Shown here in pieces: positions 1 through 33,200 of a DNA stretch of 33,200 nucleotides. The position numbers and the translations under genes were made by a program. Each line of letters starts with the position of its first letter. Positions within the stretch are counted from its first letter, which is position 1. The stretch is from Methanothermococcus sp. (lineage in GTDB: Archaea > AGJL01 > Methanococci > Methanococcales > Methanococcaceae): NCBI RefSeq assembly GCF_015523155.1, contig NZ_WAKW01000016.1:1-33200 (forward strand), read 5' to 3'. The notes beneath the pieces were generated by a model. That model had not been told where the DNA came from and did no database searches. It worked only from the letters and a program-made list of their open reading frames with translations.

Positions 1-694
1 CACAGCATAGCCATTATGTGATAAGCGGAACTTCAACAGATGGAACAAATTATGCCACTGATGAGCAGATAAAAAAATGTGTTGAACTGGCGGAAAGTGC
101 CAATAAAAAAGCTTATGTGGTTCCTGCTGATGTTTCATCCTCTGTTGCAGATATAAACAGTCCTTTTGTTGCTATCATGGTTGCAGGAATTATTGATGCA
201 TGTAAATTAAATGAAAGATTTAAACTTCCTGAGGGAGTATTTAACGAGGCTATATTGGATACTATTAAGGCGTTTAAGAATGTAATTGAAGAATATGGGG
301 GAATTCCAATAAATGCCCCCCATATGAAAAATTTTTAGAACAGATTAAGAATAATTTGCCTGAAAATATAGGTAGCATGGCATCATCTAATATATCGTCA
401 CCCACTGCAATTATAACACATTATTTTGCCATCACCATAGCCGCAGGAATTATTAAAGCGTGCAAATTTAACTCTAAATTAGAGATGCCTGAGTATATCA
501 TCAGAGAAAATATACTAAATGCCTTTGGAGCATTAGAATATTCAATAAATAGGCATGATATTAACGAGGTCTTGAGGCAGATGCACCTAGAAGTTTTGGC
601 AAAATCTACAAGATATAGCATGAAATTAAATGATGAACCTAGCAGTATCGTCCATTCAGCATTAAAAAATTTAGAAGATTATAAAATAAATTAA
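1..694 (+). pseudogene. Hmd paralogue (H2-forming methylene-H4MPT dehydrogenase-related), 5'-partial, frameshifted
   Basis: This is the 3' part of a gene that begins before the window; the open frame runs from base 3. The residues match the Hmd-II/Hmd-III class as I remember it: HYVISG at the start, an EQIKKCVELA helix, then YVVPADVSSSVAD. The first frame stops at 336-338. If one base is added to the C6 run at 316-321, the reading passes from IPINAP into PYEKFLEQIKNN and continues to the stop at 694. The GTG at 18 and TTG at 356 are therefore internal codons, not starts. The part after the run repeats the C-terminal helical segment: AGIIDACKLN is followed 87 codons later by AGIIKACKFN. Hmd paralogues lack proven dehydrogenase activity and are thought to have regulatory or other roles; none can be assigned here. 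It could be a pseudogene, a sequencing error, or a recoded or phase-variable gene. The gene converges on glyS. Confidence 0.72.
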
Positions 695-771
695 ATTTTA
701 TGTAAGTGGGTGGTAGGTTATTTAACTTAAAGTCTTATTTAAAATACTTTTATATCGGATGTATTTTAATT

Positions 772-2499
772 TTAGATGTTTCTTTTGATATAATCTACAA
801 CTTCATCAATTTTAATTCTTATCTGTTCTCTTGTATCTCTATGTCTTATTGTAATAGTTCCATCCTCCAATGTCTGACCATCAACAGTAATGCAGAATGG
901 AGTTCCAACTTCATCCATTCTCATATATCTTCTTCCAATTGCTCCGCTGTCATCATATTCAGCAATTATCCCATTTTTTCTTAGGTTATCCTTTATTTCC
1001 ATGGCGATTTCTGGCATACCCTGTTTATTAACCAATGGGAATACTCCAACTTTTACAGGAGCTACTTCTGGTTTTAACTTTAAATATGTCCTATCCTCTT
1101 CCTCATTGTAGGCATGCTCTAAAAGACAGTAGGTAATTCTGTCGATACCATAGGATGGTTCAATTACATGAGGCAATACTTTTTCTCCGGAGATTTTCTT
1201 TTTAGTTTTATTTATTTTTAAATAGTCGTTTAGTATCTCAAACTCCTTATCTTCGATTGTTAATATATATTTTCCATTTTCATTGAGCTCTTTTACCAAT
1301 TTTTCTATTTCGCTATTGTCCATGTTATTTAAGGTATTTTCAACGAGCTTCATATCTTTTTTGAATACCTTTCCAACGACCTTATAGTTTAATTCAATAT
1401 CGTAGGTTTCAATTTCTTTTGGTTTATCGTATTCTACGAAAACACTTAAATCCACACCACTGTGGTTCATGTGTGCCTTTAAGTCATAATCTGTTCTATC
1501 TGCAATACCTACACACTCAATCCATCCAAATCTATCGGTATATATTTCTGCATCCCAGCAGTCAATTGCATAGTGTGCCATTTCATCTGGAAGGTGTTGT
1601 CTGAATCTCAATCTGTTTATATCGATACCTATGTCCATTAAAAATCTCTTTGTAATTGCTACAAAGTATGCTATGGTTTCATGCCTTATTATTCCTTTTT
1701 CCACGGCATCTTTTAATGACATATTTACTACTTTTTCCTCCGAGCTCAGTGTTTCATCCATTTGCCTATCTGCTGGAAGAAGTGGTATTATGTCATTTTC
1801 CACATCCTTAAATCTCTTATGGTTCTTTATTTTAGGATGAACGAAAAATTCTGCCTCAGCCTGTGTAAATTCCCTTAATCTAATAACACCCTGCCTTGGA
1901 GAAATTTCGTTTCTGTATGATTTACCAATTTGTGCCACTCCAAAAGGAAGTTTGTTTCTGAAAAAACTTGCCAATCTTTTAAACTGGATGAATATTCCCT
2001 GAGCAGTCTCTGGTCTCATGTATCCTGTTCTCTTTCCTCCCGGACCTATTGAAGTCAAAAACATTAAGTTGTATTTTTTAACATCTCCAAATTCGCCACC
2101 ACATTTTGGACATCTTATATTGTGTTTTTTTATGAGCTCATTTAATTCTTCAAGTGTTTTTCCCTCGGTGTTTATGTTAATATTTTCCTCAATAATGTGG
2201 TCTGCCCTGAATGATTCCAAACATTCCTTACATTCTACCATCGGGTCTGTGAAGTTATCAACATGTCCAGATGCTTTTAAAACCTCGTATGGTGTAATAG
2301 TTGGGCTATCTATCTCGTAAAATTCTTCGTTTATGATATAGTGCTTTCTCCATGTGTCAATTATATTGTTTTTTAATATCGTTCCAAGTGGTGCATAATC
2401 TACAAAACCTGCTATACCACCATATATTTCAAAGGAGCTCCATAGATAACCTCTTCTTTTAGCTAAATCCATTACTTTTTCATACTTATCTTCGCTCAT
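772..2499 (-). CDS. glyS: Glycyl-tRNA synthetase
   Basis: This class II synthetase charges tRNA-Gly with glycine in the cytoplasm. The 575 residues fit the archaeal/eukaryotic alpha2 type rather than the bacterial alpha2beta2 type. The start region GYLWSSFEIYGGIAGFVDY is the usual N-terminus of this family. A zinc-ribbon-like pair (CKEC at about residue 90, CPKCGG at about 134) lies in the insertion. Motif 2 is visible as YRNEISPRQGVIRLREF at about 195-211, and motif 3 as GIDRITYCLLEH near 460. The C-terminal anticodon-binding domain follows (KVGVFPLVNKQ, then ITVDGQTLEDGTITIRHRDT). The ATG is preceded by CGGTGATTAA, a good ribosome binding site. The gene converges with the Hmd paralogue and is followed on the same strand by no other gene in the window. 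Confidence 0.97.
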   Translation of the reverse strand: MSEDKYEKVMDLAKRRGYLWSSFEIYGGIAGFVDYAPLGTILKNNIIDTWRKHYIINEEFYEIDSPTITPYEVLKASGHVDNFTDPMVECKECLESFRADHIIEENININTEGKTLEELNELIKKHNIRCPKCGGEFGDVKKYNLMFLTSIGPGGKRTGYMRPETAQGIFIQFKRLASFFRNKLPFGVAQIGKSYRNEISPRQGVIRLREFTQAEAEFFVHPKIKNHKRFKDVENDIIPLLPADRQMDETLSSEEKVVNMSLKDAVEKGIIRHETIAYFVAITKRFLMDIGIDINRLRFRQHLPDEMAHYAIDCWDAEIYTDRFGWIECVGIADRTDYDLKAHMNHSGVDLSVFVEYDKPKEIETYDIELNYKVVGKVFKKDMKLVENTLNNMDNSEIEKLVKELNENGKYILTIEDKEFEILNDYLKINKTKKKISGEKVLPHVIEPSYGIDRITYCLLEHAYNEEEDRTYLKLKPEVAPVKVGVFPLVNKQGMPEIAMEIKDNLRKNGIIAEYDDSGAIGRRYMRMDEVGTPFCITVDGQTLEDGTITIRHRDTREQIRIKIDEVVDYIKRNI

Positions 2500-2574
2500 T
2501 TAATCACCGTTATAAAATTTTAAATTAAAAATAGTTAAAATAGATTGCATATATAATTTACTAATTATTTATTT

Positions 2575-3459
2575 TTACCACAATATAGTATCATTTTTAT
2601 CTATCCTATCCAATAAAAATATCATCAATGAAGACGCCACTAAATCCGCCGTAGTCCCTGGATTTAATTTGTTTCCTTCTTTTGATAGGAATTTATCAAA
2701 CTCTTCAATATCTTCCTTTTTAAATCCTTCATCAAGTATGTTTTTTGCCATTTCTGAAACCATTTTTGAGGTATCCAAATCTTTTTTTCTGGCTATTAAA
2801 GTATCTGGATGCTCGGATAAAATGCTTAAAAATGTTTTTGTTGTTGCCAAATTTATGTTGTTGTATTCGTTATAATATTCATTTAATAGATTGTATCCTT
2901 TAAATGATATATTAAATCCTTCTGCCCATTCCTTTGAAATGCTGTCCCATGTGGAAGATATTTTAAAAACATCATACAATGTTAAATTTTTTTCTATGAG
3001 TTCCTGTTTTGCATCATTTTTCTGAGCGTCGGGACCTTCTTTTGGTGGGTTTATATTGGGTATTGCTATTTCAATAGCCTCATAAACATTCACTGCATCA
3101 TTTACTGTGGTATTTTTTGTTGTGGATATTATTTCTTTTTTTAATGTATTTTCATCAAATTCATCAATTTTCCCTGAGCTCATGGCAATAGGTATATGCA
3201 ACATTATTATTCCTAAGTTTGCATTAGTTGGAGACCATTTTTTTGACTCAATTACTGCCAATTTTATGTATTTTCCAATATCTTTGTTATCCTGACATGC
3301 CTCATAAACTACATTTCCAAATGCTATGCCGGAGCTCAGAAAATGGTGGTATTTTATATCGTCGTATTCTCTGTTTCTATGAACATTTCCGGGTTTAAAA
3401 CTGCTAACTTCCAAACAGCAAGCTATTTGTGAAGCTTTCATTATATCGTAGGGATTCAT
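2575..3459 (-). CDS. CitG/MdcB-family protein (triphosphoribosyl-dephospho-CoA synthase-like)
   Basis: The 294-residue product resembles the CitG/MdcB family (COG1767), whose bacterial members make the 2'-(5''-triphosphoribosyl)-3'-dephospho-CoA precursor of citrate and malonate lyase prosthetic groups. The N-terminal signature [10 protein letters not shown] (about residues 19-28) corresponds to the family's TPKPGLVD-type motif, and a late segment [20 protein letters not shown] (about 266-285) corresponds to its conserved C-terminal GTTADL element. No citrate or malonate lyase gene is nearby, so the substrate in this methanogen is unknown and the bacterial reaction should not be assumed. The start ATG follows GGTGAAAGG. 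It lies upstream of glyS on the same strand with a 75-base gap, so co-transcription is possible. Family assignment is fairly sure; function is not. Confidence 0.8.
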
Positions 3460-3617
3460 CCTTTCACCATGTTAATAAAATGAATAATGAATAAATTTAT
3501 AAAAATCTAATAAAAATAATTAAAAGAAGTTTAAAAAAGTTATGTTTTTATAAAAAAATAATGGGAAAAATAAAGTTTTTTAATTTTATTACTTTTATTT
3601 ATTATTTATTCTTCTTA

Positions 3618-5222: not shown

Positions 5223-5244
5223 ATTTCCACCTTTTTATAGTGAA

Positions 5245-6402: not shown

Positions 6403-6864
6403 CTAATATTTATCATTTTTATCTATACTTTCAAGCACATCCAATACTTTTTTTGACAAATCTCTCATTTTTTCAATATGACTGAGTTTTTTGGATATGA
6501 GCTCCTTTTCATCTTCATCAGATTTTTCTTTTAATTCTATCAATTTATCGCAGGTTTTTGATATAACATCATATTTCTTCTTTGCTATGTCTTTGAAGGA
6601 AGAAAAGCCGTCCACTGATTCATAATAGTTTTTTCTTTCTCCTTTAATCCATACCTTTTTTATAAATCCCAATTTTTTAAGCTTGTTTAAATTCATACTA
6701 ACATTCCCCTTGCTTATTCCCAATTCATTCATTATGTCATCTATGCACAGGGGTTTGTCTGCCAAATAAACTACTGCATAAATTTCTCCAACAGACTTAC
6801 TAAGACCGTGAATTTTTGCAATCTCTGAAAATAATTCTATTACTGTTTTTTTTAATTCATCCAT
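6403..6864 (-). CDS. GbsR/MarR-type winged-helix transcriptional regulator
   Basis: This 153-residue cytoplasmic DNA-binding protein carries a winged helix-turn-helix at about residues 22-85. [20 protein letters not shown] leads into [20 protein letters not shown], the recognition helix and wing. A long charged helix follows (about 100-150), probably for dimerization. This layout fits the GbsR group of the MarR superfamily. It is the first gene of the regulator-RND-CARDB unit, so it most likely controls that unit and itself. The ATG at 6864 follows CGGTGAGCCC. Its upstream region contains a minus-strand BRE/TATA element (6951-6969) and, just downstream of the predicted transcript start, a perfect 8-base inverted repeat (6913-6930), a candidate operator. 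The effector is unknown. Confidence 0.87.
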
Positions 6865-7892: not shown

Positions 7893-8978
7893 ATGTGCGG
7901 AATTATTGGTTTTATGAGCAGAAAAAAAAGATTGATAAGTGGAGATAGGATAGCCATAGCACTGGACAGCCTAAAAGAAAGAGGAAATGGACAGGGTTCA
8001 GGTTATGTAGGATATGGTATATATCCAAAGTTCAAAGACAGTTATGCCATACATGTTTTTTTGGATAATGTACCAAATTACGACGAAATAAGAGAAAAAG
8101 TAAAAAACACACTGGAAAAATATGGGTATGTCCTTAAAGACGAGGAGATTCCAACAAAAGAAGGAATCTTAGAAAAAGAGCATATACCATGGAGATTCTT
8201 CTATGATTTTGATGAAAAATACAGGGATATTGAAGAAGATACCATGGTAAAAATTGTTATGGAAATTAACGATAAAATAGACGGGGCATTTGTATTTTCA
8301 AGTGGTAAGAACTTAGGGGTATTTAAGGCATCAGGATGGCCAATGGAAGTAGCGAAATTTTACAAGCTAAATGAGTATAAAGGATATATGTGGTTATCAC
8401 ATGCGAGATACCCCACAAATACAAGAGGGTGGTGGGGAGGAGCTCACCCATTCAACCTATTGAATTGGTCAGTAGTCCATAACGGAGAAATTACAAGCTA
8501 CGGAACAAACAAAAGATATGTTGAAAGTTTCGGATACAAATGCAGAATGCTAACGGATACAGAGGTTGTAGCATATATATTTGATTTATTGATAAGAAAA
8601 CACAAACTACCTGTTGAGTATGCATTGAATGCCATATCTCCAAAATTCTGGAAGGAAATAGACAACATGCCAGAAGAGGAAAGAAAAATCCATGAGGCAA
8701 TTAGGATGACATACGGCGGTGCAACATTAAACGGTCCTTTTGCAATAATTGTTGGCACCCATGAAGGAATGATGTTTATGAACGGAGATATTGAAAAGGA
8801 AAGTGCCATGGTAGGTTTAACAGATAGAATAAAACTTAGACCACTTGTTGCTGCTGAAAAAGATGATTTAGCATTTGTATCCAGTGAAGAGGCTGCTATA
8901 AGAAAAATATGTCCTGAATTAGATAAGGTGTGGATGCCTGACGCAGGAATGCCTGTGATAGCAAGGATTGAAAAATAA
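7893..8978 (+). CDS. Glutamate synthase, glutaminase (class II amidotransferase) subunit
   Basis: The 361-residue protein is a free-standing Ntn-type glutamine amidotransferase equal to the N-terminal domain of bacterial GltB. After removal of Met1, Cys2 of MCGIIGF is the nucleophile that hydrolyses glutamine. [20 protein letters not shown] (about residues 169-188) and [13 protein letters not shown] (about 194-206) are the conserved substrate-pocket segments. Ammonia released here would be passed to the FMN subunit encoded next. The ATG follows a strong GGAGGATTACC site. Archaea commonly encode the GltB domains as separate genes, and the next three genes on this strand complete the set. The protein is cytoplasmic. 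Expression is expected to respond to nitrogen, but I see no clear operator. Confidence 0.9.
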
Positions 8979-9137
8979 AAATATTAAAAATAATAAATAA
9001 AATTAATTAAATTAAAAATTAAATTATTTTTTAAATGGTTAATTAGACGATTTACAAAACTCTTAGAGTTTTATATTCTACGCTCATGTGTGAGCTCTGA
9101 TACGATAACGAATAAAAATAAAAAAAGGAGTGAAATC

Positions 9138-10670
9138 ATGATACCTTCAACAGTTCCACCAAAATACAGAGTTGAAGTTAATCCCGATAGATGTATGTTG
9201 TGTGAGAGATGTGTAAAAGAATGTTCATGGGGAGTTTATAGAAGAGAGGGGAATAAAATTATAACATACTCAAATAGATGCGGTGCATGTCAAAGATGTG
9301 TTTCAATGTGTCCAAGGGATGCAATAACAATTCATGAAAACCCGATATGTTGGAGAGAGCATCCATTATGGACAAAAGAAGCAAGGGAAGATATAATAAA
9401 CCAATCCAGAACAGGTTGTATATTGTTAAGTGGTATGGGAAATGCAAAAGAATATCCTATTTACTACGATAAAATCGTTTTAGACGCTTGTCAGGTTACA
9501 AATCCATCCATAGACCCATTGAGAGAACCTATGGAGTTAAGAACATATATAGGCAAAAAACCTAAAAAATTAGAATTCGATTTTGTTGAAGAAGAAATTG
9601 ATGGCAAGAGAATTAAAAAGGCAAAATTAAAAACCAAAATTGCTCCAAACTTAAAGTTGGAAACACCAATAATGATAGCCCATATGTCTTATGGAGCTCT
9701 ATCATTAAATGCCCATAAAGCCATGGCTAAGGCTGTTAAAGAATGTGGAACATTTATGGGAACAGGAGAAGGAGGACTGCATAAAGCTCTTTATCCTTAT
9801 GCAGACCATATTATTACACAGATAGCAAGTGGTAGATTTGGAGTTAATGAAGATTATCTTTCAAAAGGGGCAGCTATTGAGATAAAAATTGGCCAGGGAG
9901 CAAAACCTGGAATTGGAGGACACCTTCCAGGAGAAAAAGTATCCGCTGAGGTTTCAATGACAAGGATGATTCCAGAGGGTAGTGATGCTATTTCCCCAGC
10001 TCCGCACCACGATATTTACTCTATTGAAGATTTAGCACAGCTTGTAAGAAGTTTAAAAGAAGCTACAAGATGGAAAGTTCCAATATTTGTTAAGATTGCT
10101 GCTGTTCATAATGTTGCAGCTATTGCAAATGGTATAGCAACATCCGATGCTGATGCAGTTGTAATCGATGGATTTAAAGGAGGAACCGGAGCTGCTCCTA
10201 AGGTATTTAGGGACAATGTTGGAATACCTATTGAAATGGCTATTGCAGCAGTTGATAAAAGATTGAGGGATGAAGGCGTAAGAAACGAAATAAGTATTAT
10301 AGCAAGTGGAGGAATTAGAAACTCCGCCGATGTATTTAAATCAATAGCACTTGGTGCAGATGCCGTCTATATTGGAACAGCAGCAATGATAGCAATGGGA
10401 TGTAGGGTATGTGGAAGATGCTACACAGGACAGTGTGCTTGGGGTATAGCAACCCAAAAACCTGAACTCGTGAATAGATTGGATGTTGAAGAAGCTTCTA
10501 AAAGGGTTGCAAACCTTATAAAAGCATGGACTCTTGAAATTAAGGAATTGCTTGGTGCAGCAGGAATTAACTCTATTGAAAGTTTGAGGGGAAACAGAGA
10601 TAGATTAAGAGGTGTAGGATTAAACGAAGTGGAGTTAAAAGCACTGGGAATTAAGCATGCAGGATTGTAA
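9138..10670 (+). CDS. gltB: Glutamate synthase, FMN/Fe-S synthase subunit (archaeal type)
   Basis: The 510-residue protein makes glutamate from 2-oxoglutarate and ammonia on FMN. It starts with a two-cluster ferredoxin domain (Cys 19, 22, 25, 29 and 48, 51, 54, 58), continues into the FMN-binding barrel, and has a 3Fe-4S-type cluster motif CRVCGRCYTGQCAWG at about 422-436. GQGAKPGIGGHLPGEKV and GFKGGTGAAPKVFRDNVGIP are hallmark glutamate synthase segments. The frame is open from a GTG at 9090, but I place the start at ATG 9138, because AAAGGAGTGAAATC directly precedes it and the 16 extra residues are low-complexity and lysine/asparagine-rich. The bacterial-type NADPH subunit is absent; electrons more likely come through the ferredoxin domain from the FrhB-like partner encoded downstream. 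Confidence 0.93.
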   Translation: MIPSTVPPKYRVEVNPDRCMLCERCVKECSWGVYRREGNKIITYSNRCGACQRCVSMCPRDAITIHENPICWREHPLWTKEAREDIINQSRTGCILLSGMGNAKEYPIYYDKIVLDACQVTNPSIDPLREPMELRTYIGKKPKKLEFDFVEEEIDGKRIKKAKLKTKIAPNLKLETPIMIAHMSYGALSLNAHKAMAKAVKECGTFMGTGEGGLHKALYPYADHIITQIASGRFGVNEDYLSKGAAIEIKIGQGAKPGIGGHLPGEKVSAEVSMTRMIPEGSDAISPAPHHDIYSIEDLAQLVRSLKEATRWKVPIFVKIAAVHNVAAIANGIATSDADAVVIDGFKGGTGAAPKVFRDNVGIPIEMAIAAVDKRLRDEGVRNEISIIASGGIRNSADVFKSIALGADAVYIGTAAMIAMGCRVCGRCYTGQCAWGIATQKPELVNRLDVEEASKRVANLIKAWTLEIKELLGAAGINSIESLRGNRDRLRGVGLNEVELKALGIKHAGL

Positions 10671-11620: not shown

Positions 11621-12694
11621 ATGAAATCATACTTAAATTTAAAAGAGGAAGTATGGGATAAGAATATATGTTCTGGATGCGGTGCCTGTGTTGCAGTTTG
11701 TCCTGTGGATAATATATACTTTAAAGAGGATAGCCCTGTAAAATTTGTATGTGATGAATGTGCCTGTATTATAGCACCTGTGGAAGAAATAGAACATCCT
11801 GTTTCTGCTGAATTCTGCAAAGTCACCCTTTACGATGTTCCGTGCGGTGCCTGTTATGATGCCTGCCCGAGAACAGAGAAAACTATTGTTCCTCCAATTG
11901 AAAAGGGAATTGGTAGAACGTTGAAAATATTAAAGGCAAAGTCAAAAATTGAAATAAAAAATTCCCAAAGTGGCGGTGTAGTAACTGCAATTTTAGCAAA
12001 TGCCTTTGATGAAGATCTTATTGATGGAGCTATTGTAATGATGGAAGATAAATGGACAATGGAACCAAAATCTTATTTGGCCACATCAAAAGAGGAAGTT
12101 CTTAAATCATCAGGAAGCAGATATAACTGGAATGTTCCAATACTCAAAGTACTAAAAGAGGCAGTAATGGTTAAAAAATTAAAGAGAATAGCAGTTGTTG
12201 GAACTCCATGTGTAATGAATGCAGTTTATCAAATAATGGCATCAGATAATGACCTTTTAAAGCCATTCAAAGATGCTATAAGGTTAAAAATAGGTCTTTT
12301 CTGTTTTGAAACCTACGATTATGATAAGATGATGACAATATTGGAAGAAAACAATATAAATCCATGGGAAGTTCAAAAGATGGATATAGAAAAAGGTAAG
12401 TTGGTAATTAAACTTATGAATGGAGATTCTGTTGAGTTTAAATTAAAAGATGTGGAGCATGCTATAAGAGATGGATGCAAAGTATGTGGGGATTTCACAG
12501 GTATTACATCCGATATATCGGTGGGAAATGTGGGAACTCCTGAGGGATACTCAACAGTTTTGGTAAGAAATAAATGGGGAAAAGGATTCATCGACAGAGC
12601 TCATGATAATGGATATATTGAATTTGAGGAAGATGTAAATATGGATGCTGTTAAAAAACTTGTGGAATTGAAGAAAAAAAGAAAAAATAAGTAA
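11621..12694 (+). CDS. FrhB-like iron-sulfur flavoprotein, putative F420 subunit of glutamate synthase
   Basis: The 357-residue protein has an N-terminal cluster-binding region (C17, C20, C23, C27 in ICSGCGACVAVCP, then CDEC near 47 and CGACYDACP near 74) followed by the F420 hydrogenase/dehydrogenase beta-subunit fold. Typical FrhB segments are SQSGGVVTAILANAF (about 111-125), VVGTPCVMNAVYQ (about 192-204), GLFCFETYDYDK and CKVCGDFTGITSDISVGNVG (about 287-306). FrhB proteins oxidise or reduce coenzyme F420 through FAD. Located directly after the three GltB-domain genes, it probably supplies reducing equivalents from F420H2, which would make this an F420-dependent glutamate synthase. That electron donor is inferred from family and context. 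The ATG follows CGGTGGAATC. It carries one of the only three GATC sites outside RNA genes in this window (12014). Confidence 0.85.
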   Translation: MKSYLNLKEEVWDKNICSGCGACVAVCPVDNIYFKEDSPVKFVCDECACIIAPVEEIEHPVSAEFCKVTLYDVPCGACYDACPRTEKTIVPPIEKGIGRTLKILKAKSKIEIKNSQSGGVVTAILANAFDEDLIDGAIVMMEDKWTMEPKSYLATSKEEVLKSSGSRYNWNVPILKVLKEAVMVKKLKRIAVVGTPCVMNAVYQIMASDNDLLKPFKDAIRLKIGLFCFETYDYDKMMTILEENNINPWEVQKMDIEKGKLVIKLMNGDSVEFKLKDVEHAIRDGCKVCGDFTGITSDISVGNVGTPEGYSTVLVRNKWGKGFIDRAHDNGYIEFEEDVNMDAVKKLVELKKKRKNK

Positions 12695-18951: not shown

Positions 18952-19866
18952 TTACAATATACTATTTAATATTGGTAACACCATCAAAGAAACCACCGTA
19001 GTTATGAAACATGCCGAAGCTACGAGTTTTACATCCAGTCCATAAAGCACAGAGAACACCAAGGACATCATTGCAGAGGGCATTGCAGATTCAAGTATTA
19101 AAACATTTTTATCCAATCCCCCTATTAAAAATATGGATGAAAGAATAAAGGCTATTAACGGAGCGATTCCCATCCTAACTATGGATGCTATTACTCCATA
19201 AATAGCACCGAATCTTGCAGAGCTCGGCGATAATGACAATCCAAGGGATAGCATAATTAAAGGTATTGTGGCATTTGACAGGTAATTCAGCGTTTTAATA
19301 AAAAACTCTGGAAAATTACCAAGGGATAATCCAAAAAATACAAGAGTTATACTTATAACACCAGTCATCAATGGTGGAAATTTTAGGAGCTCTTTTATTA
19401 CGGACTTATCGCTATTTTTATTTTTTCCAAATTTTATACCGATGTATGTTCCAATTAATAAACTGGCAAAAACACTCCCCATGTCGCAAAATATTGCTCT
19501 TGTAAGTCCTTCTGTTCCATAAAATCCATATATTACAGGGTAACCTAAAAATCCAGTATTTCCTAATGCACAAACTAATATTAGACCCCCCAGTGATTGT
19601 TTATTTAGTTTTAAGAATCTTCCAATAAGATATCCTATAAACCCACAAATGATAAATGCTAAAAATATCAAAAAAGGAAGTTTTAAAAATTGAGGTAAAT
19701 CCACAGGTGAAACATTTTTCATAATTGTTAAAAATATGGTTGAAGGCATTGCAATATATACTACAATATTGTTGAGTATTGTCCTATCGCTCTCTTTTAG
19801 AATATTAAAGTATTTTGATAGATAACCTGTTAATATTAAAAGAACTATTATGATCATTATATCCAT
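18952..19866 (-). CDS. Auxin-efflux-carrier (AEC) family transporter
   Basis: The 304-residue integral membrane protein has about ten hydrophobic helices in two groups around a more polar middle (GIKFGKNKNSDKSVIKELLK, about residues 143-162). The start region TGYLSKYFNILKESDRTILN, the segment VCALGNTGFLGYPVIYGFYG (about 98-117) and the late helices match the AEC family. Prokaryotic members are often called malate permeases, but substrates are rarely proven and archaea do not use auxin. The ATG follows GGTGTAATACT and lies four bases after the stop codon of coaD, so the two genes form one transcript. It carries one of the three non-RNA GATC sites (19852). Confidence 0.85.
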   Translation of the reverse strand: MDIMIIIVLLILTGYLSKYFNILKESDRTILNNIVVYIAMPSTIFLTIMKNVSPVDLPQFLKLPFLIFLAFIICGFIGYLIGRFLKLNKQSLGGLILVCALGNTGFLGYPVIYGFYGTEGLTRAIFCDMGSVFASLLIGTYIGIKFGKNKNSDKSVIKELLKFPPLMTGVISITLVFFGLSLGNFPEFFIKTLNYLSNATIPLIMLSLGLSLSPSSARFGAIYGVIASIVRMGIAPLIAFILSSIFLIGGLDKNVLILESAMPSAMMSLVFSVLYGLDVKLVASACFITTVVSLMVLPILNSIL

Positions 19867-21763: not shown

Positions 21764-22849
21764 ATGATTTCAAAGGAAGAAATTTTAAGCATATTTGAAG
21801 AATACAACAGGGATGAAATAACCATAGCCACTGTTGGTAGCCATACATCACTCCATATATTAAAAGGAGCAAAATTAGAAGGTTTTTCAACAGCAGTAAT
21901 TACAACAAAAGATAGGGATGTTCCATATAAAAGATTTAATGTTGCAGATAAGTTCATTTATGTTGATAAGTTTTCAGACATATCAAATGAAGAAATCCAA
22001 GAGAAATTAAGGAAAATGAATGCCATAATTGTTCCGCACGGTTCATTTATTGCATACTGCGGACTGGATAAAGTGGAAAACGACTTTAAAGTGCCAATGT
22101 TTGGAAATAGAAAAATACTTAGATGGGAGGCAGAAAGGGATTTGGAAGGAAAGCTTTTAAAAGAAAGTGGTTTAAGAATTCCTAAAAAATACAACAGCCC
22201 CGATGAGATAGACGGACCTGTAATGGTTAAATTCCCTGGTGCAAGGGGAGGAAGGGGATATTTCCCATGCTCCACAACAGAAGAGTTTTGGAGAAAGATA
22301 GAAGATTTCAAGGCAAAGGGTATATTAACAGATGAAGATGTTGAAAATGCACATATTGAAGAATATGTTGTAGGGACAAACTACTGTATACACTATTTTT
22401 ATTCTCCATTGAAAGACCAGGTGGAATTAATGGGGATAGACAGAAGATATGAAAGTAATATTGATGGAATTGTCAGGATTCCTGCAAAAGACCAGATGGA
22501 GCTCGGCATAGACCCATCTTATGTTATAAGTGGAAACTTCCCAGTGGTAATAAGGGAAAGTCTCCTTCCACAGGTATTTGAAATGGGAGATAAATTAGCA
22601 GCTAAGGCAGAAGAAATTGTGCCACCGGGAATGCTTGGTCCATTTTGTCTCCAGTCATTGTGTAATGAAAACTTAGAGCTTGTAGTATTTGAAATGAGTG
22701 CAAGAATAGATGGTGGAACAAACACCTTTATGAATGGAAGTGCATATTCATTCCTATACAATGGAGAGCCACTGAGCATGGGTCAGAGAATAGCAAAAGA
22801 GATAAAACTGGCATTGGAACTTGATATGGTGGATAAAATACTGTCATAA
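21764..22849 (+). CDS. purP: FAICAR synthetase (5-formaminoimidazole-4-carboxamide ribonucleotide synthetase)
   Basis: The 361-residue ATP-grasp enzyme joins formate and AICAR with ATP to give FAICAR, the formate-dependent ninth step of purine synthesis in archaea, which replaces the folate-dependent PurH transformylase. Recognisable segments are TIATVGSHTSLHILKGAKLE (about residues 20-39, the nucleotide/substrate pocket), MFGNRKILRWEAERDLEG (about 112-129), MVKFPGARGGRGYFP (about 151-165, the ATP-grasp lysine and glycine loop) and EMSARIDGGTNTFMNGSAYS (about 309-328, metal-binding end). The length is typical. The ATG follows GGTGAAAGA. Another purine gene, purD, lies about 4 kb away on the other strand, so the two are not in one operon. 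Confidence 0.95.
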   Translation: MISKEEILSIFEEYNRDEITIATVGSHTSLHILKGAKLEGFSTAVITTKDRDVPYKRFNVADKFIYVDKFSDISNEEIQEKLRKMNAIIVPHGSFIAYCGLDKVENDFKVPMFGNRKILRWEAERDLEGKLLKESGLRIPKKYNSPDEIDGPVMVKFPGARGGRGYFPCSTTEEFWRKIEDFKAKGILTDEDVENAHIEEYVVGTNYCIHYFYSPLKDQVELMGIDRRYESNIDGIVRIPAKDQMELGIDPSYVISGNFPVVIRESLLPQVFEMGDKLAAKAEEIVPPGMLGPFCLQSLCNENLELVVFEMSARIDGGTNTFMNGSAYSFLYNGEPLSMGQRIAKEIKLALELDMVDKILS

Positions 22850-22887: not shown

Positions 22888-23070
22888 TTAATTTTCCAAT
22901 TTTTCTTTTAACTTTTCATTTTCATTTTTTAATTTTTCATATAATTCTTTGTATGTATCTGGATTTAAACCACAGCTTTCAATGGAGGTTATGAGCTCTT
23001 CAAAATGTTCTTCGGTATGCTTTAAATTATGGAGTAGTTTTTTTATTTTTCTTTCCCTTTCATTTTCCAT
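22888..23070 (-). CDS. Small coiled-coil protein of unknown function
   Basis: The 60-residue product is almost all charged helix: 15 or more Glu and a similar number of Lys. It has heptad-like spacing in LKHTEEHFEELITSIE and again in YEKLKNENEKLKEKLEN, separated by a turn at SCGLNPDTYK (about residues 32-41), so it may fold as a helical hairpin or a dimeric coiled coil. A single Cys is at about 33. The evidence for a real gene is a good ribosome binding site, GGTGATATC, directly before the ATG, a compact fit into the gap, and no better frame on the other strand. I recognise no family. It is convergent with purP and precedes nothing on its strand closely; Alba is encoded 177 bases upstream. 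Confidence 0.65.
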   Translation of the reverse strand: MENERERKIKKLLHNLKHTEEHFEELITSIESCGLNPDTYKELYEKLKNENEKLKEKLEN

Positions 23071-23593: not shown

Positions 23594-24502
23594 TCATAGA
23601 TTATTTTTTATTTTTTTTCCAATGTTGATACTAGTTTCTTTAACTAAATTTATGTTTTCAATTCCACATTGAATTTTGCCCTCTTTTGATATTATAATAT
23701 TACCCCCATTTAACTCATAAACAGCACTACATTTTAAATATAGTTCGTTATTTTTAATATCATAATTAGCCAGAGCCCCAAAGGGTGCCTGGCATCCACC
23801 ACCATATCCCCTCAATGCCCATCTTTCTGCAATTGATTCTATATATGTTTTGTCATCGTTTATTTTTTTAAGAATATTTATTATTTCTTTATTATCTTTT
23901 CTTGAAGCAATCCCTATAATTCCTTGGGCAGGAGCGGGCAATATATCAAGTCTTTTATAATCAAACTCAGATAAATCCATTTTCAGCCTATTTAATCCAG
24001 CTTCTGCCAAAATAATGGCATCATACTGATGTTCCTTTAATTTTTTCAGTCTCGTGTCAATATTTCCCCTTAATAATTTCGTCTTTAAATTTGGATGCTT
24101 TATGGATAAAAAAGCCTTTCTTCTAATACTTGAAGTTCCCACAATTAATTCATCTTTTTCAATATCCATATCGTCGTTTTTATTCCATATTATTAAATCA
24201 TGGTAGCTTTCCCTTTTTGGAGTTGCAGATATTGTTAAATTTTCATTCCACACCGTTGGGACATCCTTTAAGCTATGGACGGCTATATCTATTTCATTAT
24301 TTAGCATTTTAATATCAAGCTCTTTTGTAAAAACTCCCAATCCGAGCTCAGATAATTTTGTTTTTTGGTTCCTATCCCCTGCGGTTTTGATAATTTTTAT
24401 CTCGATATCGAGGTTTTCATTTAAATTTTCCAAAATATTCTTTACATAATATGTTTGAGCAAGTGCTAATTTGCTTCCCCTTGTTCCAATAGTTATTTTC
24501 AA
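23594..24502 (-). CDS. hemC: Porphobilinogen deaminase (hydroxymethylbilane synthase)
   Basis: The 302-residue enzyme links four porphobilinogen units into hydroxymethylbilane, the common precursor of siroheme, heme, cobalamin and coenzyme F430. The start MKITIGTRGSKLALAQ, Asp80 in HSLKDVPT (catalytic), the RR pair in VGTSSIRRKA (about 121-130), RGNIDTRLKKL and Cys237 in GGGCQAPFGA (which binds the dipyrromethane cofactor) are all present. The start codon is TTG, placed by AAGGTGAAATC just upstream; no ATG fits. It lies 50 bases downstream of the aminotransferase gene on the same strand, so they may be co-transcribed. In a methanogen the main demand is F430 and corrinoids. Confidence 0.96.
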   Translation of the reverse strand: MKITIGTRGSKLALAQTYYVKNILENLNENLDIEIKIIKTAGDRNQKTKLSELGLGVFTKELDIKMLNNEIDIAVHSLKDVPTVWNENLTISATPKRESYHDLIIWNKNDDMDIEKDELIVGTSSIRRKAFLSIKHPNLKTKLLRGNIDTRLKKLKEHQYDAIILAEAGLNRLKMDLSEFDYKRLDILPAPAQGIIGIASRKDNKEIINILKKINDDKTYIESIAERWALRGYGGGCQAPFGALANYDIKNNELYLKCSAVYELNGGNIIISKEGKIQCGIENINLVKETSINIGKKIKNNL

Positions 24503-25871: not shown

Positions 25872-27203
25872 TTATTTCCTAAGTTTTTTCATTTTCTCTA
25901 TTCTCTTGTTTATTAAATTCAATGTTCCAATGTCTTTTCTATAAAATATATCTCCCCTTATGTGCTGTATGGCACTTTCTGCTATTTTTTCTGCTTCTTT
26001 AATATTATCTGCCACTCCAACAACTGCTGCACTTCTTGAACCAGTGGTGTATAATTTTCCATCCTTTTCATTTATAGAGGCATAATATAATATTGCACCA
26101 ATTTTTTTTATTTTGTCCTCATCAATAAATATTTCTCTGTCTTTCACTGGATTTAATGGATAGCCTTGTGGAACAACATATTTACAAACTGTTGCTTTGT
26201 TTTCAAATTCTATGTTCATTTTGTTTAATTCGCCGTTTGCTATGGCATTGCATACTTCTACAAAGTCATTTTTTAGTATAGGTAGTAGATTCATAGCTTC
26301 AGGGTCTCCAAATCTTGCATTGTATTCGATTATTTTTGGCCCATCTACTGTAAGCATGAACTGCCCATATAATATTCCTTGGTATGCCCCTACTTCTTTT
26401 TTAATGGCTTCCACTGTATTTTTCATTATTTCTTTTGCTTCGTCCAAATCATTTTCTGTTAAAAATGGTAGGTTGTGATCTGAACAGGAGTATGAACCCA
26501 TACCACCGGTGATTGGACCTTTGTCGTTTTCATATGCATGAGGGTGGTCTTGAACTGGCGGCATGAATATTATGGTTTTTCCATCGACAAAACCATGGAG
26601 TGTGAATTCAACACCTACAAGTTTTTCCTCGATTATTAATTTTCCACCACCTATGCTCTTTTCAAATATTTCCTTCGCATACTCCTTAGCCTCTTCGTTG
26701 TCCTTTAACTGCTCACCAACAACCTTTACACCTTTCCCACCTGTTAATCCAACAGGTTTAACGACGACCTCTATTCCTAAATTTGTCATTTTATCGATAA
26801 ACTCTTCCACCCCATCGTAGCTGTTGAATGCACTATACTTTAATGAACCTTTTATTTTGTATTTTTTAAAGAGATTCCTCATAAACTCTTTACTTGTTTC
26901 AATTTGTGCAGGGAGTTTTTTAGGTCCTACTGTGGGTATGCCAATTTCCCAAAGCATATCTGCAACTCCAATACCCAAAGGGGCTTCTGGACCTATCACT
27001 GCCAAATCAGGTTTTACCTCTTCTGCAAATTTTTTTATTGCATTTAAATCTGTTTCAGCATTCAATGAAACTTTTTCTGAAATTTTGGATATACCCGGGT
27101 TTTTGTTTTTCATTAATGTGTATAATTTTACAGAGTTATTTTTTTTTAGAGCTCTTGCAATAGCATGTTCTCGAGCTCCTCCACCTATTAATAAAACATC
27201 CAT
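25872..27203 (-). CDS. purD: Phosphoribosylamine-glycine ligase (GAR synthetase)
   Basis: The 443-residue ATP-grasp ligase joins phosphoribosylamine and glycine in the second step of purine synthesis. The N-terminal [18 protein letters not shown], the [14 protein letters not shown] segment (about residues 73-86), [17 protein letters not shown] (about 144-160, ATP-binding) and [17 protein letters not shown] (about 289-305, metal-binding) define the enzyme. Two ATG codons adjoin, at 27206 and 27203; I use 27203, since GGTGAT touches the first and leaves normal spacing only for the second, and M-D-V-L-L matches the usual family start. It carries one of the three non-RNA GATC sites (26477). It is divergent from the small gene at 27354 and followed by a 170-base AT-rich gap. 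Confidence 0.96.
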
Positions 27204-27353: not shown

Positions 27354-27746
27354 ATGTTAAAGAATGTTTTAAAAAAGGGAGATGCCAACGATATATTACC
27401 AATAGCCTATGCAGTGCATTTATTGGTAAATAAAGTTCCAATAGCTATGCGGTCCAAAGAAAAACCAGGGGTAAGAATTGAAAAAGGTGAGCTCGTAGAT
27501 GCCAAATATGAAGGCTATGTTCTGAAACTTGCCATTGAATTGGGAAAAACATTAAGGGTAAGTGCCACAGTAGGACCTTATGCAGGACTTCCAGTAATTG
27601 TGGTACCTATAAAAGATGGAAATGATATATTGGGGGCCATAGGGGCTGTTGATATAACTGCTGGAATATTTGAAGAAATACTATCACTCTCAAGACGACC
27701 AGAATTATCCAAATTCTTGCCTGATGAGGCTTATCCAAAAATCTAA
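27354..27746 (+). CDS. Small conserved methanogen protein (possibly DUF2111)
   Basis: This 130-residue cytoplasmic protein has no signal or membrane segment. A central alpha/beta part looks like a compact ligand-binding fold: KLAIELGKTLRVSATVGPYA (about residues 59-78), GLPVIVVPIKDGNDILGAIG (about 79-98) and AVDITAGIFEEI. The arrangement of a conserved VGPYAG turn followed by two beta strands recalls a GAF/roadblock-like sensor, but this is only an impression. I think it matches a family of unknown function found in methanogens next to the gene that follows here (80 bases downstream, same strand). The ATG follows CGGTGAAATC. No function is assigned. Confidence 0.6.
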   Translation: MLKNVLKKGDANDILPIAYAVHLLVNKVPIAMRSKEKPGVRIEKGELVDAKYEGYVLKLAIELGKTLRVSATVGPYAGLPVIVVPIKDGNDILGAIGAVDITAGIFEEILSLSRRPELSKFLPDEAYPKI

Positions 27747-27825: not shown

Positions 27826-28263
27826 GTGAAAAAAGTATTCATTTACCCGCCAAACAGTCTTATATTGGGAGATTTAGTGGAAAGATTTGGACACAAACCC
27901 TTGATGTTAAACAATGTAATCGGCGAAAAAGTAAGAACTGCGGAAATTGACAGCCCACCTTTAAATATGACTGATGAAGACCCTAAAAAAGGGCTTAAAT
28001 ATGCTGCAATTGAAGTTCCATCGGGAGTTAGGGGAAGAATGTCTTTGATAGGTCCATTGATTGAAGAGGCTGATGCTGCAATTATTATGAATGAGGCTCC
28101 CATTGCCTTTGGATGTGTAGGATGTGCAAGAACAAATGAGCTCTCAAAATACCTTATAAGAAGAAGAGAAATACCAAGGTTAAATTTAATATATCCAAAG
28201 AATGAGGAAGAGGCAAAGGTTGTAGTTCAAAAAATAGCTTCATTTTTGAAGGAGCTCGAATAA
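27826..28263 (+). CDS. Probable methanogenesis marker protein 5
   Basis: The 145-residue cytoplasmic protein begins [21 protein letters not shown]. It has a middle block [20 protein letters not shown] (about residues 61-80) and a cysteine pair in FGCVGCART (about 95-103) that could bind metal or form a redox-active pair. From memory these features fit the family called methanogenesis marker protein 5, present in nearly all methanogens and of unproven function. The start is a GTG, fixed by ACGGTGATAAT just before it. It is 79 bases downstream of the preceding small gene, which is also methanogen-conserved, so a shared role is plausible. The main uncertainty is the family number, not that it is a real gene. 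Confidence 0.65.
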
Positions 28264-29576: not shown

Positions 29577-29649
29577 AAATAAATAGATATTAAAATAAAT
29601 AGAAATAATAGGCATATAGAAATTAAGCAAAACGATATTGGGGTAAATA

Positions 29650-30879
29650 ATGAGTAATATAAAATATACAATGGGAGATGATGGCAAAGTAAATCCGATG
29701 GAAATTGTAATAATTTTGTGGATTACTATATTTGTAACAATGCTTGGTATTGGGTTGATAGCTCCGCTTATGTCAATTTATGCCAAAGAATTGGGGGCAT
29801 CAAATTTTGAAATAGGTATTATTTTTGGTTCTTTTGCAATTGCAAGAACCATAGCCCAAATTCCTATTGGAAGTTTATCCGATAAATACGGTAAAAAAAT
29901 ATTCATTTTAATAGGAACATTTTTTTATGGTATTTTTACATTGATGTATGCTTTTATAAATTCTGTAAGTGGATTGTTATTAGTCAGGTTATTTAATGGA
30001 GCATTTTCTTCGTTTATAACCCCTGTTGCTGGTGCATATGTTGCCACCATTGCTCCAAGGGAAAAACTTGGAGAATATATGGGTATATTTAATTCTTCAA
30101 TAAGTGTTGGATTTGCTATGGGTCCTCTTATAGGAGGTTTTCTTGCGGAGTGGTATGGTATAAAAACGCCTTTTTATTTTTGCGGAGCTCTGGCGTTCCT
30201 TGCATTTTTAATTAGTTATTTTAAATTAAAAAATGTAGTGGTTGATAGCAATGGAAAATGGAAATATATTTCAGAATGTATTGTTAGGAAGGAGGTTGAA
30301 TTTAGTAAAAGTATATTATCTTTTGAATTTTTAAAAAATAGATATTTTTTAATATCATATATAATAAATACAGCATATATGGCAGTTAATGCAGGCATAA
30401 TAGGATATTTAGCAGTTTATGCTTCAAATTATAATATTGGAATAGCCTATGTTGGATTTTTAATAGCTTCCACAAACTTAGTCATGGGGACCCTTCAAAG
30501 AAAATTTGGAAGAATTTATGATAAAGTAGGAAACTCTGTTATATATATTGGATTAATAATTGGGGGTTTTGGAGTTTATGCTCTTTCCATATCTAACTCC
30601 CCCATAAGTATGTTTATATCCTTAGTGGTAATGGCTCTTGGGGGTGCAATGTACGTTCCTGCCATAAATGCATTAGCTATGAATGATATACCTCATTATA
30701 AAAAGGGAGGAGCTATGGGATTTTTTACAACCAGCTTAAACATCGGAATGTTTATTGGTGCGGTGGTTCTTGGATTTATTGCCGATTATGTGGGATTGTC
30801 CAATATGTATAAATTTTCTGCTGTAATTTTATGTGGAGTATGTATTGGAGCATATATTGCCATGAGAAAAAGGATATAA
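29650..30879 (+). CDS. Major facilitator superfamily transporter
   Basis: The 409-residue membrane protein has about twelve hydrophobic helices in two halves with a charged central loop (about residues 195-222). The loop after helix 2 reads [13 protein letters not shown] (about 76-88), the classic MFS GxLaDrxGrr motif, and [20 protein letters not shown] (about 148-167) resembles the helix-5 antiporter motif of drug/proton exporters. A drug or metabolite efflux role is therefore plausible, but the substrate is unknown. The short N-terminal tail is cytoplasmic. The ribosome binding site is weak (TTGGGGTAAATA). Its stop lies 10 bases before the pcm start codon, so the two are probably co-transcribed. 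Confidence 0.9.
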
Positions 30880-30889
30880 AGGTGATTTT

Positions 30890-31540
30890 ATGGTGATATC
30901 AAAAATGATTCCAATAGTGGAGAGGTTAATGAATGAAGGATATATAAAAAATAACAAAGTAGCCGAGGCCCTTCTAAAAGTTCCGAGGGAGAAGTTTGTT
31001 CCAAAGGAGCTCAGGGATTACGCATATATTGACACACCCTTAAACATTGGTTATGGCCAAACTATTTCAGCCATTCACATGGTTGCCATAATGTGTGAAG
31101 CCCTTGATTTAAAAGAAGGTCATAAGGTTCTTGAAGTTGGAACAGGTTCTGGTTATCATGCCGCAGTTGTGGCCGAGATTGTTGGAAAAAATGGGCAGGT
31201 GGTAACAATAGAAAGAATACCTAAACTGGCTGAAAAAGCTGAAAATGTGTTGAGAGAATTGGGGTATGATAATGTGATAGTAATTTGTGGAGATGGAACA
31301 TTGGGGTATGAACCCCTTGCACCCTATGATAGAATATATATAACCGCAGCAGGTCCGGATATTCCAAAACCTTTAATTGAACAGTTGAAAGATAATGGAA
31401 AACTTGTAGCTCCAGTTGGTCAATATATTCAGAATTTAATAGTGGTGGAGAAAAAAGGTAAAAAATTAATAAGGAGAAACATAGGAGAAGTAGCGTTTGT
31501 ACCATTAGTTGGAGAGGAAGGGTGGCATATTGAAGAATAA
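30890..31540 (+). CDS. pcm: Protein-L-isoaspartate O-methyltransferase
   Basis: The 216-residue enzyme methylates L-isoaspartyl residues in damaged proteins with S-adenosylmethionine, starting their repair to aspartate. [20 protein letters not shown] (about residues 45-64) is the substrate-loop signature of the family, [18 protein letters not shown] (about 80-97) is the SAM-binding motif I, and [16 protein letters not shown] (about 162-177) is the later conserved segment. The length is normal. The ATG follows AAGGTGATTTT. It lies 10 bases after the MFS gene, an arrangement with no evident functional link. Confidence 0.96.
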
Positions 31541-31694
31541 GGCGGATTATTATCATAATTATAAAATTAATAATTAATAAATTAATATAAATTAATAGAT
31601 TAATTTCGATAATGTTAAATATATAAAAAATAATTAAAATGAATATTAAAAATTATATTAAAAATTATAACATATAAAATAAAGAGGTATAATT

Positions 31695-32594
31695 ATGAAA
31701 AAAATCGGAACTGAACTTTTAAAAAGAGGATTTGCAAAAATGGTAAAGCATGGAGTTGTAATGGATGTTACAAATGTTGAACAGGCACAAATTGCTGAGG
31801 ATGCAGGAGCTACTGCGGTAATGGCTTTGGAAAGAGTTCCAGCAGATATAAGAGCTCAAGGTGGAGTAGCAAGAATGTCAGACCCTGAAATGATATTGGA
31901 GATAAAAGATGCTGTGTCAATTCCTGTAATGGCTAAGGCAAGAATAGGTCATTTTGTTGAAGCTCAGGTTTTAGAGGCAATTGGCGTTGATATGATTGAT
32001 GAGAGTGAGGTATTAACCCCTGCTGATGAAGTAAATCATATCGATAAAAAAGCATTTAAAGTTCCATTTGTATGCGGTGCGAGAAATCTTGGAGAGGCAT
32101 TAAGAAGAATTGATGAAGGAGCTGCAATGATAAGAACAAAAGGAGAAGCTGGAACAGGAAATGTTGTTGAAGCTGTAAAACACATGAGGGCAGTAAATGA
32201 AGGTATTGCAAGAGTTGTTGGATACTATGAAATGGGTCTTGATAGGGAGCTCGTCCAAATGGCAAGAAATGAATTGAAGGTTCCATTGGATTTGGTATAT
32301 GAAGTGGCAAAATTAAAAAGATTGCCAGTAGTTAATTTCGCAGCAGGGGGTATTGCAACACCAGCTGATGCGGCATTGATGATGCAGATGGGATGCGATG
32401 GTATATTTGTAGGTTCTGGTATTTTTAAGTCAGGAAATCCTGAAGAGAGAGCAAAAGCAATTGTTGAGGCAACATACAATTATGATAAGCCTGATGTAAT
32501 AGCAGAAGTCAGCAAAAACCTTGGAGAAGCCATGGTTGGAATTAACATTGAGGACATTCCAGAGAAGGAACTCCTTGCAAAAAGAGGAGATTAA
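31695..32594 (+). CDS. pdxS: Pyridoxal 5'-phosphate synthase, lyase subunit
   Basis: The 299-residue TIM-barrel enzyme makes PLP directly from ribose 5-phosphate, glyceraldehyde 3-phosphate and ammonia in the DXP-independent pathway. Asp24 (VVMDVTN), the imine-forming Lys81 (VMAKARIGH) and Lys149 ([10 protein letters not shown]) are in place. It forms a dodecamer and needs the glutaminase PdxT for ammonia; no pdxT is in this window. The sequence is very typical, with a somewhat richer codon choice than its neighbours, as expected of a well-expressed gene. The ATG follows AGAGGTATAATT. The tRNA/5S operon follows after 120 bases. Confidence 0.98.
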
Positions 32595-32669
32595 ACTTAT
32601 ATATTTTTATTATTTTATTATATATTTTTTATTTTTAATTACACTCATCAATTTAAATTATTAAAACCG

Positions 32670-32706
32670 AAAGGTTTATATAGTAGAAGGGTATTATTCA
32701 GTTTGC
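32670..32706 (+). promoter_or_regulatory. Promoter of the tRNA/5S operon
   Basis: CCGAAAGGTTTATATA (about 32668-32682) is a BRE plus box A as in methanococcal stable-RNA promoters. It is followed 22 bases later by TTGCAAAC (32703-32710), which matches the box B/initiation region (TGC); the start is expected at about 32705, roughly ten bases before tRNA-Thr. Confidence 0.85.
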
Positions 32707-32715
32707 AAACAAAAT

Positions 32716-32789
32716 GCCTCGGTGGCTCAGCCTGGTAGAGCGCCTGACTTGTAATCAGGTGGTCGGGGGTTCGAATCCCCCCCGGGGCT
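32716..32789 (+). tRNA. tRNA-Thr (anticodon TGT)
   Basis: The acceptor stem GCCTCGG pairs with CCGGGGC (32782-32788), the anticodon loop is CTTGTAA with TGT at 32750-32752, and the T arm is GGGGG-TTCGAAT-CCCCC. The discriminator is T, as usual for archaeal tRNA-Thr. CCA is not encoded. First gene of the operon; no intron. Confidence 0.97.
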
Positions 32790-32811
32790 TGATGTTTCAG
32801 AATGTTTAATA

Positions 32812-32889
32812 GGGCCTGTGGGGTAGCCTGGTCCATCCTTTGGGATTTGGGATCCTGAGACTCCAGTTCAAATCTGGGCAGGCCCACCA
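32812..32889 (+). tRNA. tRNA-Pro (anticodon TGG)
   Basis: The acceptor stem GGGCCTG pairs perfectly with CAGGCCC (32879-32885), followed by A and an encoded CCA (32887-32889). The anticodon TGG is at 32848-32850, in a loop whose stem has two G-U pairs. The T loop is TTCAAAT. Of the four tRNAs here only this one encodes its CCA end. It contains a GATC at 32851-32854. Confidence 0.95.
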
Positions 32890-32911
32890 TTTGTTATTTA
32901 ATTAATCTTAC

Positions 32912-32985
32912 CCGGCGGTAGTTCAGCGTGGTAGAACGGCGGACTGTAGATCCGCATGTCGCTGGTTCAAATCCGGCCCGCCGGA
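32912..32985 (+). tRNA. tRNA-Tyr (anticodon GTA)
   Basis: The acceptor stem CCGGCGG pairs with CCGCCGG (32978-32984), giving the C1-G72 pair that marks archaeal tRNA-Tyr, with discriminator A. The anticodon GTA is at 32946-32948 in loop CTGTAGA with stem GCGGA/TCCGC. The T arm is GCTGG-TTCAAAT-CCGGC. CCA is not encoded and there is no intron. Confidence 0.97.
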
Positions 32986-32993
32986 CTACAATT

Positions 32994-33067
32994 GGGCCCG
33001 TAGCTTAGTCTGGTAGAGCGTCTGGCTTTTAACCAGGCGGTCGAGGGTTCGAATCCCTTCGGGCCCG
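32994..33067 (+). tRNA. tRNA-Lys (anticodon TTT)
   Basis: The acceptor stem GGGCCCG pairs with CGGGCCC (33060-33066), and the discriminator is G, as usual for archaeal tRNA-Lys. The anticodon TTT is at 33028-33030 in loop CTTTTAA. The T arm is GAGGG-TTCGAAT-CCCTT. CCA is not encoded. It is 21 bases upstream of the 5S rRNA. Confidence 0.97.
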
Positions 33068-33088
33068 CTACAATTAACATTTTTGACA

Positions 33089-33200
33089 TGACGGTCATAG
33101 CGGAGGTGCCACATCCGATCCCGTTCCGATCTCGGAAATTAAGCCCTCCAGCGATACCCTAAGTACTGCCTTTTGGTGGGAACAGGGTGACGCCGTCAGC
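33089..33200 (+). rRNA. 5S rRNA (3' end at or just beyond the window edge)
   Basis: The 5' end TGACGGTCATAGCGGAGG and the core CCGATCCCGTTCCGATCTCG and AAGCCCTCCAGCG are archaeal 5S rRNA. Helix I closes as TGACGG (33089-33094) with CCGTCA (33193-33198), so nearly all of the molecule is present and at most a few 3' bases are missing. It is linked to tRNA genes rather than to 16S and 23S rRNA, as in the extra 5S gene of the tRNA operon known from Methanococcus vannielii. Confidence 0.95.

Follow-up and report, generated by a model that had tools for sequence, protein, structure and literature searches.

The palindromic hexamer GAGCTC is a highly iterated palindrome (HIP) of a few Methanococcaceae: one palindrome is over-represented genome-wide, within about 0.5-2 sites per kb, independently of codon usage and reading frame. 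It was noticed in contig C14 (G000:C14) of a 1.44-Mb Methanothermococcus-related genome (G000), a stretch of 33,200 nt that is called the window here. An earlier reading of the window from its letters alone (the sequence-only reading) had likened GAGCTC to the cyanobacterial HIP1 and proposed a DNA-level signal; being genome-wide, frame-independent and conserved in position, the hexamer bears this proposal out. As the best explanation overall, we think it somewhat probable that GAGCTC is a kilobase-scale signal that is maintained, is probably unmodified and serves as the target of a predicted dimeric DNA-binding protein.

By direct count the window contains 33 copies of GAGCTC, about one per kb. 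All 33 copies listed by the sequence-only reading were present, 32 at the exact coordinate and one off by one (9694, not 9695). Dinucleotide shuffles of the window contained 1.81 +/- 1.39 copies (maximum 6) and a third-order Markov model fitted to the window predicted 6.7, confirming the enrichment that had been claimed over approximately three expected copies. Sixteen sites are read as Glu-Leu, nine are centred on Ala and seven are read as Ser-Ser, while one (22993) lies outside the set of open reading frames (ORFs); the split given previously (17, 9 and 6) was close to this recount. GAGCTC was also the top over-represented hexamer in the 302 kb of G000 that were read (299 versus 25.8 expected) and in M. 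okinawensis (1.58 Mb; 1958 versus 132 expected).

Whole-genome counts were obtained for 36 Methanococcales genomes, with the reversed word CTCGAG as control. Four genomes were rich in GAGCTC: G000 (1315 GAGCTC versus 8 CTCGAG), G002 (1645 versus 21), G003 (M. okinawensis IH1; 2070 versus 6) and G033 (1515 versus 45). These counts correspond to 0.9-1.2 sites per kb, or roughly 15-20 times expectation; the remaining 32 genomes contained 4-229 copies. G000, G002 and G003 belong to one genus together with nine non-rich genomes, and G033 belongs to another. The proteins encoded in the window and their closest named relatives assign it to Methanococcales, in the vicinity of Methanothermococcus. The nearest complete genome to the window is M. 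okinawensis IH1, the glycyl-tRNA synthetases being 95% identical, and the 14,930-bp contig of G003 is identical to plasmid pMETOK01. G002 is presumably M. aeolicus Nankai-3, and G033 is presumably M. thermolithotrophicus. GAGCTC was the top hexamer in G000, G003 and G033; in G002 the sub-word AGCTCC scored slightly above it, because the site in this genome is GGAGCTCC.

To separate the signal from coding constraints, synonymous codons were redrawn from their usage outside the motif. In coding DNA, GAGCTC exceeded this null about 12-17-fold, beyond the fivefold mark set by the sequence-only reading, whose statement that codon preference does not suffice thus holds. M. okinawensis coding DNA contained 1820 copies versus 106 under the null, and the coding part of the 302 kb of G000 contained 283 versus 18. 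Confinement to the Glu-Leu frame, named as a ground for dropping the idea, was not seen: all frames were raised in M. okinawensis (979, 638 and 203 versus 19.8, 72 and 14.5 under the null). Enrichment was likewise 8- to 30-fold in non-coding DNA (140 versus 5.6 expected in M. okinawensis) and 16-fold in plasmid pMETOK01 (13 versus 0.8 expected). In M. okinawensis the log odds ratio was 2.9-4.7 across every codon class, and GAGCTC occupied 94% of the tripeptides Gly-Ala or Arg-Ala followed by Pro, His or Gln and 28.5% of Glu-Leu pairs. With all codon classes, non-coding DNA and the plasmid enriched, the bias is thus similar in size whatever the context. Glu-Leu is the commonest context of GAGCTC, as would be expected if codon or amino-acid usage were responsible, but the excess over the codon null in every frame and in non-coding DNA rules out codon usage and amino-acid composition as the cause. 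Nor would an assembly artefact produce the motif richness of G002, G003 and G033, each assembled in one or two contigs, and enrichment runs opposite to the avoidance caused by restriction. We therefore give virtually no credence to codon or amino-acid usage, restriction-site effects or assembly artefacts as explanations.

Sites are kept in place long after synonymous sites have come near saturation. Between G002 and M. okinawensis, median protein identity is 74% and four-fold third positions are 48% identical. Where residues are the same, 29 of the 37 sites in G002 and 29 of the 58 in M. okinawensis were nevertheless kept. The neutral expectation is about 5% (GAG retention of 0.296 times CTC retention of 0.172), and simple Glu-Leu occupancy predicts 28% or 16%. 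Between G000 and M. okinawensis, 197 of 223 (88%) and 197 of 266 (74%) sites were kept, against about 19% expected. The comparison of positions between relatives called for by the sequence-only reading hence gave conservation well beyond the neutral level. Same-residue differences affected 69 of the 266 M. okinawensis sites versus 26 of the 223 G000 sites, and most single differences at sites were transitions. Maintenance may be weaker in G000, which has some excess of GAACTC. Of the 31 window sites that could be aligned, 26 are identical in M. okinawensis, as listed below (window coordinates; no strand assigned; "kept" and "lost" refer to M. okinawensis).

1285..1290, GAGCTC, glycyl-tRNA synthetase gene (glyS), Glu-Leu; lost (GAATTA)
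1742..1747, GAGCTC, glyS, Ser-Ser; kept
2134..2139, GAGCTC, glyS, Glu-Leu; kept
2435..2440, GAGCTC, glyS, Ser-Ser; kept
3176..3181, GAGCTC, Ser-Ser; one-off word GAGTTC
3332..3337, GAGCTC, Ser-Ser; kept
6499..6504, GAGCTC, Glu-Leu; kept
8440..8445, GAGCTC, Gly-Ala-His; kept
9092..9097, GAGCTC, gene start (Val-Ser-Ser); not alignable
9694..9699, GAGCTC, Gly-Ala-Leu; kept
12597..12602, GAGCTC, Arg-Ala-His; kept
14780..15220, three GAGCTC in a moeA-like gene, 14780 Glu-Leu, 14917 Gly-Ala-Pro, 15215 Glu-Leu; all three kept
15634..15868, two GAGCTC, 15634 Glu-Leu, 15863 Gly-Ala-Leu; both kept
17110..17151, two GAGCTC, 17110 Glu-Leu lost, 17146 Glu-Leu kept
18256..18261, GAGCTC, Ser-Ser; lost (diverged protein)
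19220..19392, two GAGCTC, 19220 Pro-Ser-Ser, 19387 Glu-Leu; both kept
22499..22504, GAGCTC, purP, Glu-Leu; kept
22993..22998, GAGCTC, outside the ORF set, at ATGAGCTCT downstream of GGAGGT (possible start of a small gene)
24344..24349, GAGCTC, porphobilinogen deaminase gene, Glu-Leu; kept
27149..27178, two GAGCTC in purD, 27149 Arg-Ala-Leu, 27173 Gly-Ala-Arg; both kept
27489..27494, GAGCTC, Glu-Leu; lost (GAAATT)
28138..28257, two GAGCTC, 28138 and 28252, Glu-Leu; both kept
30185..31012, two GAGCTC, 30185 Gly-Ala-Leu, 31007 Glu-Leu; both kept
31852..32252, two GAGCTC in a pdxS-like gene, 31852 Arg-Ala-Gln, 32247 Glu-Leu; both kept

At the end of the window (32716-33200) lie four tRNA genes and, after them, a gene for 5S rRNA.

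The bases around the hexamer differ between species. In G002, 75 of 98 sampled sites had the form GGAGCTCC, and this octamer occurred 1259 times in the genome (1,569,500 bp), while the reversed word did not occur at all. M. okinawensis showed a weaker flank preference, T-[AC]-G 5' of the core with its mirror image 3', in tables that pool both strands and assume mirror symmetry; after Lys, Glu or Gln codons, position -1 was G in 90% of motif sites versus 29% of other Glu-Leu pairs. Judged from these sequences, the flanks look like those of a site for a dimeric protein, with species dialects. One-off variants of Glu-Leu sites showed no excess in M. okinawensis (0.63-1.15), so that recognition seems near all-or-none; in G000, GAACTC (1.79) and GAGCTG (1.98) were modestly raised. 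The sequence-only reading had placed single-base variants near expectation, which holds generally, but not for those containing GATC or GCGC or for the GTGCTC type (0.48-1.2). The variants containing GATC or GCGC are low because the genomes avoid these tetramers for other reasons. In the samples of G000, G002 and G003, avoidance of GATC, ACGT, GTAC, CTAG and GCGC was strong, with ratios as low as 0.01-0.3. Neither the place in a gene nor the place along the chromosome affected occupancy. Spacing in M. okinawensis was slightly more even than in permutations, with 198 versus 255 pairs at 120-240 bp (z = -4.2) and 533 versus 588 gaps under 320 bp, a result that is suggestive only.

Several relatives (G008, G009, M21, SZUA-1385, C09 and G034) avoid AGCT as a whole (observed/expected 0-0.4), for which reason GAGCTC is rare in them; in the rich genomes, AGCT outside GAGCTC stands at 0.9-1.1. 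Restriction of AGCT by a system of the AluI kind is thus suggested for several Methanococcaceae. A depletion specific to GAGCTC in sister genomes was considered and rejected as part of this general avoidance. An enrichment in Methanocaldococcus was likewise rejected: counts there are raised relative to the reversed control, but the sampled stretches lie at or below the trinucleotide-based expectation. Samples of 4.6-80 kb from relatives lacking GAGCTC enrichment contained no other strongly enriched palindrome.

Methylation had been offered as a possible basis of the signal, and every HIP-rich cyanobacterial genome has been reported to carry a matching methyltransferase (PMC4390886). By analogy, a methyltransferase of an unrecognised kind could modify GAGCTC, and the sites could accumulate through repair guided by this methylation or through some other process. 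PF01555 methyltransferases are indeed present, four in G000 and one in G002, and the M. okinawensis plasmid encodes a methyltransferase. However, the single-molecule real-time (SMRT) methylome of M. aeolicus PL15/Hp, a strain in which GAGCTC was not counted, lists N4-methylcytosine (m4C) in CTAG, N6-methyladenine (m6A) in GTNAC, GCACY and CGAG and, by inference, 5-methylcytosine (m5C) in ACGT; m6A or m4C in GAGCTC is not among them (PMC10113651). The same study was blind to direct detection of m5C (PMC10113651), which leaves room for a C5-methyltransferase. A PF00145 profile search found no such enzyme in the 12 genomes of the window's genus, the rich G000, G002 and G003 included, although it gave hits in the remaining four genera of Methanococcales, G033 among them. 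M. okinawensis lacks a PF01555 DNA methyltransferase; its amino-methyltransferases are a D12 enzyme beside DpnII (GATC), two type I HsdM and the plasmid enzyme, 82.5 kb of the chromosome being covered by the PF01555 and PF00145 profiles alone. The observed/expected ratio of GATC in this genome is 0.03. None of these M. okinawensis methyltransferases is a likely GAGCTC enzyme, and an enzyme encoded on the plasmid of a single strain could not account for four genomes. No cognate GAGCTC methyltransferase/endonuclease pair was found, D12 and DpnII (GATC) being the chromosomal type II pair of M. okinawensis. A methyltransferase for part of the word, as in Elhai's rule for cyanobacteria, was not found either, by searches that non-canonical enzymes could escape.

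On pMETOK01 (L246 5124-8597 and 9590-12637), a DNA methyltransferase of 1157 amino acids lies beside a helicase-related protein of 1015 amino acids, resembling a defence module, and a G002 methyltransferase (L107 919-2277) has a staphylococcal-nuclease-like domain fused at its end.

The HIP1 route to a repair mark, which needs MutS and MutL, fared no better. MutS (MutS_V search, with MutL outside its scope), NucS and Vsr were absent from all four rich genomes, which therefore cannot support the GmeC-directed mismatch model or these known kinds of biased repair. Among G012-G035, MutS and NucS each occurred in a few Methanococcales and never in the same genome. Neither methylation nor repair by this route thus found backing as the basis proposed by the sequence-only reading. 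Methylation and known mismatch-repair pathways are each unlikely causes, and we regard a methylation-linked HIP as quite improbable.

Another explanation dispenses with function: gene conversion or sequence-preferring repair might change words close to GAGCTC into GAGCTC and restore lost sites in polyploid cells, leaving functionless sites. Such a neutral drive would account as well as selection does for a bias that measures about 3-4 log units everywhere, in non-coding DNA and on the plasmid too, and the GAGCTC-free stretches described below include gene clusters that often move horizontally. Yet with MutS, NucS and Vsr missing from all four genomes, no known mismatch system is available to it; the slightly even spacing in M. 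okinawensis is unexpected from a local repair bias, and one-off variants are not generally depleted. A neutral drive therefore appears unlikely to us.

We return to the maintained, unmodified signal. In this explanation, a putative dimeric protein would read the bare palindrome in a nearly all-or-none manner, and a weak selective force, or a drive equivalent to it, worth about 3-4 scaled units at each site would maintain the sites. The most likely role would be a kilobase-scale signal by which the cell handles its own DNA when it recombines or exchanges DNA or organises its chromosome. Of these, recombination or DNA exchange is our tentative first choice, at well below even odds, and chromosome organisation ranks next. 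Several points weigh against this explanation. No reader protein was identified, and no comparison of gene content was made; a biased conversion process would give weak per-site maintenance equally well; and the more even spacing reaches significance in M. okinawensis alone, with too few sites or no such effect in the remaining three genomes. Stretches of 5-10 kb in M. okinawensis are moreover free of GAGCTC (G003:C2 1338008-1348547, 458185-464496 and 1457791-1465230), so that one site per kb is not essential everywhere. The proteins read there form a glycosyltransferase-like cluster, a paralogous membrane-protein run and a chemotaxis-like cluster, and the stretches are possibly acquired DNA.

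GAGCTC can be set beside several known systems. It is the recognition word of SacI/Ecl136II-type enzymes but, unlike such restriction sites, it is enriched rather than avoided, and no cognate enzyme was seen in M. okinawensis. Like Chi it is over-represented, dispersed, short and G+C-rich; Chi is an asymmetric, oriented word, and we know of no role for RecBCD/AddAB in archaea.

The DNA uptake sequence (DUS) of Neisseria and the uptake signal sequence (USS) of Haemophilus offer another parallel. GAGCTC could be such a self-tag, bound by a type IV pilus or another receptor, which would be one form of a role in DNA exchange. A similar density of about one per kb, copies inside genes, species-specific flank forms, loss in relatives, plasmid copies and slightly even spacing all resemble DUS/USS. 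Known DUS/USS, however, are non-palindromic, and no receptor was identified. Mismatched variants of DUS/USS are over-represented (PMC1939737), unlike the one-off words of M. okinawensis. Natural transformation is known from a related methanogen, M. maripaludis (PMC10133366). The sampled Methanococcus-type genomes lack the enrichment. An uptake sequence is accordingly a minority possibility, on a par with neutral drive.

As a HIP, GAGCTC resembles cyanobacterial HIP1. What HIP1 does has been an open question since the 1990s, and the leading explanation links it with DNA methylation and with mismatch repair. If small archaeal genomes that apparently have neither carry a HIP, the palindrome would be uncoupled from methylation. 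The literature searched contained no paper on GAGCTC enrichment in methanogens, and we put at slightly under even the chance that this is the first HIP-class palindrome in Archaea, independent of methylation and known mismatch repair; an as yet undiscovered archaeal protein would then recognise the bare word GAGCTC, or GGAGCTCC in M. aeolicus, and so mark the chromosome as the cell's own at roughly one site per kb. Close relatives with the signal, with another dialect or without it provide a comparative system, and because M. okinawensis and M. aeolicus can be cultured, and presumably M. thermolithotrophicus too, the reader protein could be fished for directly. GAGCTC differs from HIP1 in being archaeal, in a core of only 67% G+C and in that no matching methyltransferase was found and MutS is absent. 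Like HIP1 (GCGATCGC) and the alternate HIPs, it is a genome-wide palindrome of about one site per kb whose extensions differ between species (PMC4390886). Both signals have been lost in some relatives: for HIP1, loss after the acquisition of a GATC endonuclease was proposed in one cyanobacterium (PMC4390886), which parallels the relatives here that avoid AGCT altogether. Unlike in the work on HIP1, conservation of position across species was tested directly for GAGCTC.

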